This document shows, piece after piece, positions 14,177-45,586 of a DNA stretch of 45,807 nt. The DNA is taken from assembly GCF_002843425.1 (NCBI RefSeq), contig NZ_NKXO01000030.1:1-45807 (forward strand), written 5' to 3'. Origin of the DNA: Raineya orbicola. GTDB lineage: Bacteria > Bacteroidota > Bacteroidia > Cytophagales > Thermonemataceae. Under the pieces are notes generated by a model, which saw only the letters and a list, made by a program, of their open reading frames with translations, was not told the DNA's origin and ran no database searches. How positions within the stretch are numbered: position 1 is the stretch's first letter; the number at the start of each line of letters is the position of its first letter. The position numbers were made by a program, and so were the translations under genes.

Positions 14177-16621
14177 ATGAAAATATCTTACAATTGGCTC
14201 AAAACCTTTCTTGACCTCAACGAAACACCTGAACACCTTGCCCAAGTACTTACCCAAGCAGGTTTGGAAGTGGAAAGCGTAGAAAAAATATATTTATATC
14301 AAGGCAAAAAGCTCAATAATGCCCTTGAAGGTCTGGTAATTGGCGAGGTACTTACTTGTGAAAAACACCCCAACGCCGATAAACTTTCCAAAACTACTGT
14401 TAGTGTTGGCTCAGAAACTTTGCCCATAGTTTGTGGTGCAAGCAATGTTGCCCAAGGGCAAAAAGTAGTAGTAGCTACGGTAGGTACTACCTTATATCCT
14501 ACAACAGGTGAGCCTTTTACCATTAAGAAAGCCAAAATTCGTGGCGAAGAGTCCATAGGTATGATTTGTGCCGAAGATGAAATCGGCATAGGTGAATCTC
14601 ACGAAGGAATAATAGTTCTGCAAACAGATTTACCTAACGGCACACCTGCCACAGAATTTTTCAACATTGAAACAGACTATATTTTTGAAATAGGGCTTAC
14701 TCCCAACCGCATTGATGCCGCTTCACATTTAGGCGTAGCCCGAGATTTGAAAGTGCTTTTACAAAAAGAACTATGCCAGCCCTCAAATGCTCAATTCGTA
14801 GAAGGTTTAGGCAAAGCTATTCAGGTAATTGTAGAAGATACCCAAGCCTGCCCTCGCTATGCAGGAATTCTCATTGAAGGTGTAAGCGTGCAACCCTCTC
14901 CCGATTGGCTGAAAAATAGATTAAAAGCCATTGGTCTGAACCCTATCAACAACGTTGTTGATATTACAAACTACGTTTTACATCATTTAGGGCAACCCCT
15001 ACACGCCTTTGATGCCGATTGTATTGCAGGGGGCAAAATTATTGTCAAAAAACTTGCCGAAAATACACCATTCGTAACACTTGACGGCATAGAACGCAAA
15101 CTTTCTGCCCAAGACCTAATGATTTGCGACACTGAAAAACCTCTTGCTTTGGCAGGTGTTTTTGGGGGGCTACATTCGGGTGTTACTGAAAATACCACCA
15201 AAATATTTCTTGAAAGTGCCTATTTCCACCCTGATACTATTCGTAAAACAGCCCAAAGACATAGCCTCAAAACAGACGCTTCCTTCCGCTTTGAGCGTGG
15301 CACAGACCCCAATATGCCCGTATATGCCCTCAAATTTGCTTCTATACTGATTTCTGAGGTAGCAGGGGGCAAAGTCGCTTCTGAAATTATTGATATTTAC
15401 CCACAACCAATTACACATTTCAATTTTGAAGTAAGTTACAAAAACTTGGACAGACTTATTGGTAAATCTTTGGATAGAACGCTCATCAAAAACATTCTCA
15501 AAGGTTTAGAAATTAAAATTACAAATGAAACAGCACAAGGATTTAGCGTGAGTGTGCCTCCTTATCGTGTAGATGTGCGTAAAGAAGCTGATATTGTAGA
15601 GGAAATTTTACGCATTTATGGCTTCAACAACATTGAATTTAGTGAAAATTTAAGTGCTTCTTTTATAGCTTCCTTTCCTAAAACAGATAAGCACAAACTT
15701 CAACAAAAAATCACGGAAATTCTTACCGCAAACGCCTTTAATGAAATTATCACTAATTCCCTTACTAAACCTGAGTATGCCCAGATATTGAAAAATATTG
15801 ATAAATCTCAAAATGTGGTTATTCTTAATAAGTTGAGCGAAGAGTTAGAAGTATTGCGTCAGAGTTTGATTTTTTCGGGATTAGAAGCCATTTCCTACAA
15901 CCTAAATCGCAAGCAAAGAGATATTAAAATTTTTGAATTTGGCAAAATCTATCGTAAAAAAGGCTCACAAGGTAGTGTAAGCGAAAAATATGAAGAGCAA
16001 ACCCAATTAGCTCTCTGGGTAACAGGCAATTGGAATGCCGAAGGCTGGCAACATAGCCCTGCACCCAAAACTACTTTTCATCATTTGTATAATATTGTGG
16101 ATAAAATATTGCAAAGTCTGAAAGTTTCTGATGTTAGAAAACAAGAGGCAGATGAGCGAGTTTTTGCTTACGGCTTGGCGTTACAAAAAAATGATAAAAT
16201 TTTTGCTCAAATAGGAGAACTACAACCTTATATTCTCAAAACAGCAGATTTGAAAGGCTCGGTGTTTTATGCCGAATTAGATTGGGATTGGCTCATAGCA
16301 CAATACAATGATGAATTTACCTACCAAGAAATCCCCAAATTCCCCGAAGTTCGCCGCGATTTGTCTTTGGTTTTAGATAAATCCGTTTCTTACCAAGAAG
16401 TAGAACAAAAAGCCTTTGCTTTGGAGAAAAAATTGCTCAAAGCTGTAAATATTTTTAGCGTGTATGAGGGAGAGCAAATAGGTGAAGGAAAGAAGTCTTA
16501 TGCCGTTAGTTTTATTTTGCAAGACGAAACGCAAACCCTTACCGAATCGCAAATTGATAAAACTATGCAGAAACTTATGGAAGGGTTTAGAAAAGATTTG
16601 GGAGCAGTTATTAGAGACTAA
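14177..16621 (+). CDS. pheT: Phenylalanine--tRNA ligase beta subunit
   Basis: An 814-aa subunit of the alpha2-beta2 phenylalanyl-tRNA synthetase, with all expected modules. An EMAP-like tRNA-binding OB fold lies at about residues 40-150 (GLVIGEVLTCEKHPNADKLS, ICAEDEIGIG). The B3/B4 editing domain follows (GLNPINNVVDITNYVLHHLGQPLHAFDAD), then the B5 DNA-binding-like domain around residues 410-480, a class II-like catalytic core lacking catalytic motifs, and a C-terminal FDX-ACB anticodon-binding domain (FPEVRRDLSLVLDKSVSYQEVE, about 720-814). pheS is not adjacent, unlike in many other phyla. Full length with no internal damage. Confidence 0.97.
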   Translation: MKISYNWLKTFLDLNETPEHLAQVLTQAGLEVESVEKIYLYQGKKLNNALEGLVIGEVLTCEKHPNADKLSKTTVSVGSETLPIVCGASNVAQGQKVVVATVGTTLYPTTGEPFTIKKAKIRGEESIGMICAEDEIGIGESHEGIIVLQTDLPNGTPATEFFNIETDYIFEIGLTPNRIDAASHLGVARDLKVLLQKELCQPSNAQFVEGLGKAIQVIVEDTQACPRYAGILIEGVSVQPSPDWLKNRLKAIGLNPINNVVDITNYVLHHLGQPLHAFDADCIAGGKIIVKKLAENTPFVTLDGIERKLSAQDLMICDTEKPLALAGVFGGLHSGVTENTTKIFLESAYFHPDTIRKTAQRHSLKTDASFRFERGTDPNMPVYALKFASILISEVAGGKVASEIIDIYPQPITHFNFEVSYKNLDRLIGKSLDRTLIKNILKGLEIKITNETAQGFSVSVPPYRVDVRKEADIVEEILRIYGFNNIEFSENLSASFIASFPKTDKHKLQQKITEILTANAFNEIITNSLTKPEYAQILKNIDKSQNVVILNKLSEELEVLRQSLIFSGLEAISYNLNRKQRDIKIFEFGKIYRKKGSQGSVSEKYEEQTQLALWVTGNWNAEGWQHSPAPKTTFHHLYNIVDKILQSLKVSDVRKQEADERVFAYGLALQKNDKIFAQIGELQPYILKTADLKGSVFYAELDWDWLIAQYNDEFTYQEIPKFPEVRRDLSLVLDKSVSYQEVEQKAFALEKKLLKAVNIFSVYEGEQIGEGKKSYAVSFILQDETQTLTESQIDKTMQKLMEGFRKDLGAVIRD

Positions 16622-42035: not shown

Positions 42036-43874
42036 ATGTGTGGCATTGGCTTTATTCGCTTGCGAAAACCTTATCAATACTACCTGGATAAATACGGCTC
42101 TGTGCTTTATCCTTTGCAAAAATTGTATATGCTAATGGATAAACAAAGCAACCGCGGACAAGACGGAGCAGGAGTAGCGGTTATAAAGTTAGATGTACCA
42201 CCAGGGAATCGTTACATAAGTAGGTATCGTTCTATCAAACAACAGGCTACGCATAAAATTTTCAAAAAGATTGCCAAGAAAATCAAAAAAGCTGTCAAAG
42301 GGCATAAAAAAGAGGCTCTCAATGCCCAATGGCTCAAAGAAAATGTAGCTTTTACAGGAGAATTGCTTTTAGGACATTTACGCTACGGCACACACGGCTT
42401 GAATAGCATAGAAAATTGCCACCCATTTTTGCGTCAGAATAATTGGAGAAGCAGAAATTTAGTGTTGGCAGGCAATTTTAATATGACCAACAACGATGAA
42501 CTTTTTGAAAAACTGCTTCAACTTGGTCAGCACCCCAAAGAAAAAATTGATACCGTAACCGTACTTGAAAAAATCGGGCATTTTTTAGATGAGGAAAATC
42601 AACTCATTTATGACGCTCACAAAGAACTCTACACCAAGCAAGAAATGTCGGCGGTGATTGAGGAAAAAATTGATTTACAAAGAGTTTTACGAAGAGCTTG
42701 CAAAGATTTTGACGGAGGCTATGCCATTGTAGGAATGACAGGCTATGGGGCGGCATTTGTAGCTCGCGACCCTGCGGGTATTCGTCCTGCTTATTTTTGG
42801 GCAAATGATGAATTTATCGTAGTAGCTTCTGAAAGAGCCGCTATTAAACTTGCTTTTGATGCTTCCTATGAGGAAATTGAAGAAATAAAACCTGCTCACG
42901 CTCTTATTATTCATAAAAATGCTACTTTTGAGCAAAAACCTTTTGCCGAGCCTTTGCCTCAGAAATCTTGCAGTTTTGAACGCATTTATTTTTCACGGGG
43001 AACAGACCCTGCTATCTATCAGGAACGCAAGCAGTTAGGCTTTTTACTTGCTCCCAAAGTTTTAGAAGCCATTGGGTACGATTTGGAAAATACTATTTTT
43101 TCTTACGTTCCTAATACAGCCGAAACCTCTTTTTTAGGACTTCTGAAAGGTTTAGAGTATCATTTAGAGCAAAAACGAAAAGAACTTTTGCAAAAGCAAG
43201 ATTATCAAAATCTTGAAAAAATCATTTCCTCACGCATACGTGTAGAAAAGTTGGTTATCAAAGATGCCAAACTCCGTACTTTTATCACTGATGATAGCCA
43301 TCGCAAAGAGCTGGTAAATTCTGTCTATGACACTACTTACAACGTAGTTCGTAAAAAGCAAGATACGCTTGTTATCATTGATGATTCTATCGTAAGAGGC
43401 ACTACATTGGAAGAGAGCATTTTGCAGATGCTTGATAAACTTGAACCCAAAAAAATCATTATTGTTTCTTCTGCTCCGCAAATTCGCTATCCTGATTGTT
43501 ACGGAATTGATATGTCCAAAATGGGTGAATTTGTTGCTTTTCGGGCAATGTTAGAACTACTGAAAGAACGAGGCGAACATATTGTTTTTGATGAAAAATT
43601 GCTTAGTGAAAATGAAAATCTCGCTCAAAAATGGTATAATCTTTTCACCGAAGAGCAAATTTCTGCGAAAATTGCTCAAATGATTAAGCAAAAAAGTAAA
43701 ATTCAGGCAGAAGTGGAAGTTATTTATCAAAGTATAGAAAACCTGCACAAAGCCTGCCCCCAACACCAAGGCGATTGGTATTTTACAGGTAATTATCCCA
43801 CACTTGGCGGCTATAAAGTCGTGAATAAATCGTTAAAAAACTATTTGGAGGGCAGATTGGAAAGGGCTTATTGA
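42036..43874 (+). CDS. Amidophosphoribosyltransferase, long Bacteroidota variant
   Basis: A 612-aa protein of the PurF type, which makes phosphoribosylamine from PRPP and glutamine. The N-terminal Ntn glutaminase domain begins MCGIGFIRL with nucleophile Cys2, followed by NRGQDGAG, HLRYGTHG and the DGGYAIVGM and RDPAGIRPAYF segments. The C-terminal phosphoribosyltransferase domain has the PRPP loop VIIDDSIVRGTT at about 446-457. It is about 130 residues longer than classical PurF because of inserts (for example around 65-105) and a C-terminal extension. No propeptide precedes Cys2, since a TAA stands in frame 15 nt upstream of the ATG. Whether it replaces or accompanies a classical purF is not visible, so no symbol is given. 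Confidence 0.87.
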   Translation: MCGIGFIRLRKPYQYYLDKYGSVLYPLQKLYMLMDKQSNRGQDGAGVAVIKLDVPPGNRYISRYRSIKQQATHKIFKKIAKKIKKAVKGHKKEALNAQWLKENVAFTGELLLGHLRYGTHGLNSIENCHPFLRQNNWRSRNLVLAGNFNMTNNDELFEKLLQLGQHPKEKIDTVTVLEKIGHFLDEENQLIYDAHKELYTKQEMSAVIEEKIDLQRVLRRACKDFDGGYAIVGMTGYGAAFVARDPAGIRPAYFWANDEFIVVASERAAIKLAFDASYEEIEEIKPAHALIIHKNATFEQKPFAEPLPQKSCSFERIYFSRGTDPAIYQERKQLGFLLAPKVLEAIGYDLENTIFSYVPNTAETSFLGLLKGLEYHLEQKRKELLQKQDYQNLEKIISSRIRVEKLVIKDAKLRTFITDDSHRKELVNSVYDTTYNVVRKKQDTLVIIDDSIVRGTTLEESILQMLDKLEPKKIIIVSSAPQIRYPDCYGIDMSKMGEFVAFRAMLELLKERGEHIVFDEKLLSENENLAQKWYNLFTEEQISAKIAQMIKQKSKIQAEVEVIYQSIENLHKACPQHQGDWYFTGNYPTLGGYKVVNKSLKNYLEGRLERAY

Positions 43875-43943
43875 AATGCAAAGGGCGAAAATAATACGCT
43901 TTTATCGTAGCAAGCCATAAAATTTATTTCCAAAATTTTCACT

Positions 43944-43963
43944 TTTAGCGAAATTTCGCTAAA
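43944..43963. promoter_or_regulatory. Perfect 20-bp palindrome upstream of aceB, candidate operator
   Basis: TTTAGCGAAATTTCGCTAAA is a perfect palindrome ending 36 nt before the aceB ATG. Its right end overlaps a degenerate -7-like TAAATTG (43960-43966). No T-tract follows, so it is more like a dimeric regulator site than a terminator of the preceding gene. Confidence 0.6.
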
Positions 43964-43999
43964 TTGCCAATCCATACTTCAACCCCAAATTTTGGAATA

Positions 44000-45586
44000 A
44001 TGATGCTCAATGCCCAAATTTCAGCCGCCAATCGGTACAGCGAAGTGCTCACCGATGAGGCAGTCGCTTTCTTGGTACATTTACACAAAAAATTCAATCC
44101 CAAGCGTAAAGAGCTACTTGCGAAGCGTCAGGAGCGTTTGCAGGAACTCAAAAATGGCAAGTTGCCTACTTTTTTGCCCGAAACTCAAGCTATACGCGAA
44201 GACTCATCGTGGAAAGTAGCCCCCATACCCGCCGATTTGCAAGACCGCCGTGTAGAAATCACGGGTCCGGTGGATAGAAAAATGGTTATCAATGCCCTCA
44301 ATTCAGGGGCAAAGGTATTTATGGCAGATTTTGAAGATGCCAATTCGCCCACTTGGGAAAATTGTTTAGAGGGGCAAATCAATCTGAAAAATGCTATTTT
44401 ACGACAAATAGATTTTACCGCTGAAAATGGCAAAACTTATCGGCTCAATGAAAAAACTGCTGTACTGAAAGTTCGCCCTCGTGGTTGGCACTTGGTAGAA
44501 AAGCACTTTTTAGTAGAAGGTGAGCCTATTTCTGCATCTTTGTTTGATTTCGGGCTTTTCTTTTTCCATAATGCGAAAAATTTGCTTGCTCGTGGCACAG
44601 CTCCTTATTTTTATTTGCCTAAAATGGAAAGTCATTTAGAAGCTCGCCTATGGAACGAAGTTTTTGTAGAAGCACAACATTATGTAGGCATTCCCGAAGG
44701 TACTATCAAAGCAACGGTACTTATTGAAACCATTTTGGCGGCTTTTGAAATGGAGGAAATCATCTACGAGCTTCGCAACCATTTGGCAGGGCTAAACGCA
44801 GGTCGTTGGGACTACATTTTTAGCACCATTAAAAAACTTCATCATTTGCCCCAAGCTCAATTTCCCGATAGAGGTCAAATCACGATGCAAGTGCCTTTTA
44901 TGCGTGCCTACGCCCAACTGCTCGTAAAGATTTGCCACAAACGCAATGCCCACGCTATTGGTGGAATGTCGGCGTTTATTCCTTCTCGCAAAGATGAGGA
45001 AGTCAATAAAAACGCTTTCGCCAAAGTACGTGCCGATAAAGAATTAGAAGCCACGACAGGTTACGATGGCACTTGGGTAGCCCACCCCGACCTTGTGCCT
45101 ATTGCCCAAGAAGCCTTTGATAAAGTGCTGGGCTCAAATCCTCATCAGAAACACGTTTTACGCGAAGATTTGCAAATTTCGGATAAAGATTTGCTGAATT
45201 TTCACATTGAAGGCGGTAAAATTACCGAACAAGGTTTGCGAACAAACATCAATGTAGGCATTTTGTATATTGAGTCTTGGCTTTCGGGAGTGGGTGCGGC
45301 GGCTCTCTACAATCTGATGGAAGATGCCGCTACAGCTGAAATTTCCAGAGCTCAGGTTTGGCAATGGCTCAAAACACTGGCTAAATTAGATGATGGTAGA
45401 ACGATTGATGTACCTTTCTACAAGCAAATCTTGCAGGAAGAAATAGAAAAGTGCAAGAAATTGCTTGGAGAAACAAGAATACAAGCGGGAAATCTGGCAA
45501 AAGCTATCAAAATATTTGATGAAATTGTTTTGAATGAAAATTTTGTAGAGTTTCTGACCATTCCTGCTTACGAATATTTAGATTAG
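44000..45586 (+). CDS. aceB: Malate synthase A
   Basis: A 528-aa malate synthase that condenses glyoxylate with acetyl-CoA in the glyoxylate bypass. Visible signatures are [15 protein letters not shown] (metal and substrate region, about residue 100), [14 protein letters not shown] with the catalytic Arg, [26 protein letters not shown], and [17 protein letters not shown]. Isocitrate lyase is not in the window. The frame opens at TTG 43964, but the ATG at 44000 gives family length and leaves the 20-bp palindrome outside the gene. A terminator follows 5 nt after the stop, so it is monocistronic. Confidence 0.95.

Follow-up and report, generated by a model that had tools for sequence, protein, structure and literature searches.

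Introduction

Does the perfect 20-bp palindrome ahead of aceB, the malate synthase gene of Raineya orbicola, serve as an operator, and if so, for which protein? The original prediction, which concerned the 45,807-nucleotide stretch of DNA analyzed here (the window), read the palindrome as the operator of a dimeric regulator of the glyoxylate bypass and left this regulator unnamed. We consider it very probable, based on genome comparisons, that the palindrome forms the central dyad in the operator of an ScfR-like factor (of the RamB/PccR/PrpR type) encoded elsewhere in the genome, which would repress genes for growth on acetate or fats until an acyl-CoA signal arrives. Among CC-licensed PMC papers, we found none on a Bacteroidota regulator of the glyoxylate bypass and none that presents this motif as an operator, the ScfR family paper (ref. 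36 of PMC10370305) lying outside this scope.

Results and Discussion

The Palindrome and the aceB Promoter in the Window

The dyad has the form 10+10, TTTAGCGAAATTTCGCTAAA, and is perfect, with a gap of 36 nt to the aceB ATG, just as the original prediction had described it (Table 1). In the genome of 3,070,213 bases, the exact 20-mer has a single occurrence, and allowing for up to three mismatches yields four places, compared to none for a reversed control pattern. When the aceB upstream regions from three species of the genus are aligned, the palindrome is their longest invariant block. Two perfect 20-bp palindromes are present in the window, where ~0.07 would be expected from composition; the other one, TATCAACAACGTTGTTGATA (14944-14963), lies inside an ORF (14177-16621) that we take to encode phenylalanyl-tRNA synthetase beta, and is probably a coding coincidence. 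We also observed an 11-bp inverted repeat, TTCCAAAATTT/AAATTTTGGAA (43928-43938/43987-43997), which brackets the palindrome and which, in the upstream alignment, is not conserved in the sister species G001. The palindrome has no T-tract, in agreement with the original description, and no terminator-like site was found in 43600-44300.

Table 1. Features of the aceB Upstream Region and Gene, in Window Coordinates
Feature	Position	Strand	Remarks
Proposed central operator dyad, 20-bp perfect palindrome	43944-43963	.	Core GCGAAATTTCGC at 43948-43959; core conserved in relatives
aceB, malate synthase A, proposed regulated gene	44000-45586	+	NCBIfam malate_syn_A 786.8 bits vs cut-off 594.5; Pfam malate synthase domains
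TTG, candidate -33 element	43964-43966	+	Read by eye; shifted 4 nt vs the usual site after the core
AAATTTTG, candidate degenerate -7 box (uncertain)	43987-43994	+	By eye 7/8 to TAnnTTTG

The sequence TAAATTG, which had been taken for a -7-like element, is better read as the end of the palindrome followed by a -33-type TTG. The candidate -7 box in Table 1 begins 23 nt after the start of this TTG, as in canonical sites, and the scripted -7 box scan of the 65 promoters described below called none at this aceB. We consider this promoter uncertain, because the -7 candidate would leave almost no leader. In the portion of PMC9723704 drawn on here, the -7 box of a flavobacterium is located at -12 to -5 and leaderless mRNAs make up 5.5% of those examined, and thus a leaderless aceB mRNA would be possible rather than established.

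Further Sites in the Genome

A search with up to two mismatches finds a copy (C25:23889-23908) directly ahead of the isocitrate lyase gene aceA (assigned by Pfam and NCBIfam isocitrate lyase matches), where recurrence had been anticipated in particular. Read in gene direction, this site comprises the core, a GCGAA 18 bp upstream and a TTCGC 18 bp downstream, forming a four-half-site array, and its promoter is a textbook Bacteroidota promoter in the usual register, with TTG adjoining the core and TATCTTTG following at a distance of 23 nt from it. The aceB of the window is an outlier, having the central dyad core without outer half-sites, and a degenerate promoter.

A second copy with two mismatches (C31:12133-12152) is found in the intergenic region that separates an HMG-CoA reductase gene from a divergently oriented Nfu-type gene; this site, TTTTAGCAAAATWTCGCTAA (near-palindrome TTTTAGCAAAATTTCGCTAA, in L003:1407-1596, G000:C31), could serve either gene. 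Nine HMG-CoA reductase loci were found and eight scored (the partial locus of G017 was left out), with TTTTAGCAAAATWTCGCTAA being present in three species of the genus (G000, G001, and G003) and absent in G002, G004, G006, G007, and G009. A place with three mismatches on C8, which runs into the start of a lipoprotein-like ORF, was taken as chance, and 16-mers with two mismatches at C14, C33, and C52 were set aside as lying inside ORFs. A looser R/Y pattern was too noisy, with 107 places vs 8 in the reversed control; among its matches listed, we kept two zero-mismatch places, namely the aceB and HMG-CoA reductase sites, and inspected two with one mismatch. The sequence TTAGCAAAAAATTGCTAA (L233:1200, G000:C5:95799-95816) is found a short distance ahead of a serine-dehydratase-like gene, and is a weak candidate site. 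In motif scoring, the upstream region of the pckA gene of this genome does not score high, and the regulator gene discussed below has no good upstream site (best score -5.3), such that self-control is not supported in this genome.

Co-occurrence of Dyad and Regulator in Relatives

To follow the dyad beyond R. orbicola, 59 genomes (own genome included) were searched, giving malate synthase matches in 23, of which G011 (35% identity, partial) was dropped. In the resulting 22 Cytophagales genomes with malate synthase A, again including our own, the core GCGAA-NN-TTCGC stands ahead of aceB in 18 and is absent there in four (G005, G028, G043, and G057); in other genomes it stands ahead of aceA or pckA. 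The recurrence in relatives on which the original prediction depended is thus observed, with the dyad conserved before aceB across the order and the flanks diverging. In 10 of the 18 genomes that carry the dyad before aceB, the gene running divergently from aceB encodes an XRE-HTH protein of ~490 aa; in the other eight, this regulator gene is located elsewhere. Using a profile built from seven such proteins, and counting matches of >500 bits as full-length relatives, we found the full-length regulator in 24 of the 59 genomes (47 when short HTH-only matches are counted). Each of the 18 genomes in which the dyad precedes aceB has it, and none of the four lacking the dyad there does (Fisher p 1.4e-4), where we note that these four are not independent, because three belong to one family.

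The strict palindrome WAGCGAAWWTTCGCTW is present in 20 of the 59 genomes, that is, in 19 of the 24 with the regulator and in 1 of the 35 without it (p 5e-10; reversed control 0). Its 30 places comprise 16 before aceB, five before aceA, two before pckA, two at the start of a serB-like gene, one each before a glutamate-synthase-like and a glutamate-dehydrogenase-like gene, one before the regulator gene itself (G024), and two inside ORFs. The gene names at the places other than aceB are mostly presumed ones, the aceA of our own genome and the pckA loci being backed by search matches. Of the five regulator genomes without the strict palindrome, G030 and G045 have a looser core before aceB, G050 has a CG-centred variant beside pckA, and no site was found in G017 and G035. 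The pckA gene is present in 42 of the 59 genomes, and two of the 30 loci scored (G036 and G051) were high, the upstream stretch of L206 perhaps having been slightly mis-set. In G025, which has the regulator and no aceB, sites precede the glutamate-synthase-like and glutamate-dehydrogenase-like genes (L181, L182), hinting at a shifted regulon.

Scanning GTDB contigs with an alignment of 15 regulators gave 552 confirmed loci, the best 80 of which were used; judging from their names, we take these to be Bacteroidota, mostly Cytophagales genera. This set overlaps with the 59 genomes in at least four common contigs (L075, L076, L082, and L129, which are G001, G024, G030, and G017). Within the best 80 of 552 loci, aceB is divergent from the regulator in 42, and the core lies between the two genes in every one of these 42, compared to 0.02 expected from dinucleotide shuffles, the rest of those loci (370,916 nt) holding one core. 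The 38 of the best 80 of 552 loci without aceB nearby divide into eight with a core and 30 without any. In L121, L149, and L153, the core stands ahead of a gene that is presumably pckA. The Spirosoma utsteinense locus has a perfect 50-bp palindrome between pckA and the regulator (L149:3887-3936), whose core is GCGAACGTTCGC and whose outer half-sites read GCGAt, again with a period of 18 bp. A 48-bp perfect palindrome before pckA in Rudanella (L153, around 2469) shares the core GCGAACGTTCGC, and both represent a variant of the proposed operator. The pckA sites in some relatives suggest a regulon that joins the glyoxylate bypass with gluconeogenesis.

Promoter Geometry

We aligned 65 promoters on the core (42 aceB promoters from the GTDB loci, 18 from the 59-genome set, and five aceA promoters). 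In 36 of the 65, the distance from the 12-bp core to the start of a TAnnTTTG -7 box is exactly 23 nt, and in six it is 22 nt; TTG follows the core immediately in most, with G at the third place in 32 of the 47 sites tallied. A third half-site, TTCGC, is found 13 nt after the core in 44 promoters and 12 nt after it in six (50/65), and a GCGAA precedes the core by 17 or 18 nt in 23/65, with both outer half-sites being present in 16/65; the corresponding means from letter shuffles are 0.06 and 0.05. Most commonly, the core is followed by TTG and then by a half-site located between -33 and -7. We note that the invariance of GCGAA/TTCGC in the core is by construction, because the scan required those letters, which is not so for the flanking columns.

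A protein sitting on the -33 element and the spacer should block RNA polymerase, and therefore repression is the likelier mode, this being an argument from position only. As to stoichiometry, further half-sites ~18 bp away would suit a tetramer. The proposal of an operator of the glyoxylate bypass is supported, and its dimeric part is refined, in that the usual operator extends beyond a single dyad.

A Predicted ScfR-like Regulator

The original prediction was right that the window holds no candidate regulator: the gene is located on another contig (G000:C18:25896-27347, L061:1498-2949), starts with GTG and encodes a 484 aa protein that scores 698 bits against the seven-protein profile. The factor can now be named as ScfR-like. 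A PF09856 search of the whole genome gave no match (two control genomes were positive). An ScfR protein thus initially appeared to be ruled out, until the profile of the relatives detected it. The protein has an N-terminal XRE-type HTH (PF01381 HTH_3, 60.8 bits, cut-off 23) and an IrrE-like middle domain (DUF955, now PF06114, Peptidase_M78; 50.9 bits, cut-off 22). Its C-terminal PF09856 (ScfRs) match is below the curated cut-off (14.8 vs 24 bits), and Reg_Aceta_RamB is its best NCBIfam hit (E 2.2e-15), yet at 56.3 bits vs an equivalog cut-off of 700. As neither curated cut-off is reached, we class the protein as ScfR-like, on a divergent branch, rather than as RamB. Among 21 regulator genes, the start codon chosen is GTG or TTG in eight (L061:1498, L056, L057, L060, and L062-L065); the G003 regulator has one TAG in the profile-matched stretch, and its frame from a TTG to L062:2949 is open.

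For the fold, we modeled the relative L075, which is 88% identical to the R. orbicola protein, with a 50-sequence alignment (pLDDT 87.7, pTM 0.79). The best fold match is MtPrpR (Foldseek E 1.7e-13), with VIA-align 2 giving Z 26.4 against 6cyj_A (rmsd 4.7, 299 residues, 20% identity, model residues 136-481), and the model contains the MtPrpR fold of DIII, GAF-like, and C-terminal regions. CapP, PprI, and IrrE come next at Z 13-15, the top entry of unrelated function reaching Z 14.8. Sequence searches of the PDB with the full protein return HTH proteins only; without the HTH, PrpR comes first, at a weak E of 0.0068.

The predicted [4Fe4S] ligands, C361 and C448-X2-C451-X4-C456, are present in 50/50 sequences and also invariant in 15/15 with the R. 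orbicola protein as the first sequence; the cluster ligands of MtPrpR, in the part of PMC6765138 used here, are Cys363 and C447-X2-C450-X4-C455. In that same part, Arg159 of MtPrpR contacts the succinyl carboxylate in a RamB-like mutant. With the register taken from alignments, the Arg159 place is Arg in 50/50, and the Phe155 place is Phe in 41/50 and His (the MtRamB residue) in 0/50. These residues point to CoA, acetyl-CoA, or another short acyl-CoA as the likeliest predicted ligand. By its predicted fold and cluster motif, the regulator is an ScfR homologue, and it would also function like one; we regard it as divergently related to the acyl-CoA-sensing ScfR family (RamB, PccR, and PrpR).

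Comparison to Known Systems

The RamB of Corynebacterium glutamicum is a repressor that regulates acetate metabolism and glyoxylate genes; our protein falls short of the RamB equivalog cut-off, and the two boxes presumably differ. Deinococcus IrrE/PprI, a DNA-damage regulator, has the IrrE-like middle part in common with our protein, at Z 13.3-14.4, below PrpR.

Closer parallels are provided by two further ScfR-family systems. In the sections of PMC10370305 considered here, Paracoccus denitrificans RamB, a class 2 member of the ScfR family, is divergent from ms-icl, has two boxes with an 18-bp spacer, mainly activates, and has CoA esters as its ligands, and its authors propose that the tetramer represses while a dimer formed with the CoA ester activates. 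The present system resembles it, so far as those sections describe it, in the divergent gene of many relatives, in its intergenic boxes, and in its predicted control of the glyoxylate cycle and predicted CoA-type ligand, with RamB-like divergence from malate synthase in 42/80 GTDB loci (best 80 of 552) and 10/18 dyad genomes, and not in the R. orbicola genome. Unlike the two spaced boxes of Paracoccus RamB in those sections, the half-sites here are inverted and abut over the -33 element, often with outer ones 17-18 bp off, and the regulator gene in the genome of the window is unlinked to aceB. According to the part of PMC6765138 used here, MtPrpR and MtRamB have the box TTTGC(A/G)AA; MtPrpR activates methylcitrate-cycle genes through two boxes, one self-palindromic and the other imperfect, separated by 1 bp, and its tetramer was crystallized without the DNA-binding domain. 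Our regulator is like MtPrpR, its best fold match, in its four matching cluster cysteines and in its half-site TTWGCGAA, which is close to this box and fits it partly, in an arrangement that differs from that of MtPrpR.

Proposed Mechanism and Alternatives

Taking these observations into account, the factor would most likely be an acyl-CoA-responsive tetramer that needs a [4Fe4S] cluster. We infer that it binds inverted TTWGCGAA half-sites at -33, with another half-site in the -33/-7 spacer at most promoters, and that the targets of its repression would be malate synthase, isocitrate lyase, and, in certain relatives, PEP carboxykinase. During growth on acetate or fats, a short acyl-CoA would change its oligomeric state, and transcription would start. 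Far more tentatively, and with less than even confidence, we suggest that a lineage-specific acyl-CoA- and Fe-S-dependent tetramer may use all four HTH domains simultaneously on a symmetric ~48-bp operator, GCGAA-13-GCGAANNTTCGC-13-TTCGC, over -33/-7, and may act across much of Cytophagales as the master repressor both of acetate assimilation (aceB, aceA) and of gluconeogenesis (pckA), the HMG-CoA reductase (or Nfu) gene having been added in the genus of the window.

Several observations count against the preferred reading, an operator dyad of a repressing ScfR-like factor. The aceB of the window has the dyad only and a degenerate promoter, the regulator gene of this genome is unlinked and without a good upstream site, 5/24 regulator genomes lack the strict palindrome, and 30/38 aceB-less loci (best 80 of 552) lack the core; further, the PF09856 score is below its cut-off, and Paracoccus RamB, in the text of PMC10370305 cited above, is mainly an activator. 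The last point leads to an alternative that we hold to be somewhat unlikely, namely that the same regulator and operator are mainly activating, the dyad being needed to recruit RNA polymerase. In the parts of the sources used here, Paracoccus RamB, whose divergence from ms-icl is shared by many relatives, activates via two boxes with a proposed tetramer/dimer switch (PMC10370305), and MtPrpR also activates its targets (PMC6765138); on the other side stands the argument from position only, in that the dyad adjoins the -33 TTG or overlaps with it, and a protein on the spacer half-site found in 50/65 promoters should block polymerase. It is improbable, in turn, that an unrelated regulator binds the dyad and that the ScfR-like gene is merely a frequent neighbour. 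While the two are unlinked in the genome of the window, and binding is a prediction here, the co-occurrence holds when unlinked (8/18 genomes with the dyad before aceB), the G024 site precedes the regulator gene itself, and the half-site TTWGCGAA resembles the MtPrpR/MtRamB box given in the cited part of PMC6765138.

A role in RNA, with the palindrome acting as the terminator of the upstream gene or as an attenuator hairpin, appears very improbable. The transcript could fold, with an MFE of -22.6 kcal/mol (z -1.84), where 7/200 shuffles fold as well or better; T-tract and terminator call are absent, however, and the half-sites show fixed letters instead of paired exchanges, with the flanking A/T columns, which the search did not require, keeping the DNA motif. 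Furthermore, at most of the aligned promoters the aceB transcript would lack the core, because the core lies upstream of the -7 box, which speaks against an RNA role. We give almost no credence to chance or a scattered repeat element: the second perfect 20-bp palindrome in the window (14944), in an ORF, is probably due to chance, but the aceB palindrome has just four places in the genome at up to three mismatches, and order-wide conservation before aceB with diverging flanks.

Significance

Repression by an ScfR-like regulator, the reading that we prefer, offers a nameable regulator along with its presumed DNA motif, the geometry of the promoters, and a small regulon, all of which can be tested with one purified protein. 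For the family as a whole, it suggests how an ScfR-family tetramer may sit on DNA, on four half-sites with a period of ~18 bp.
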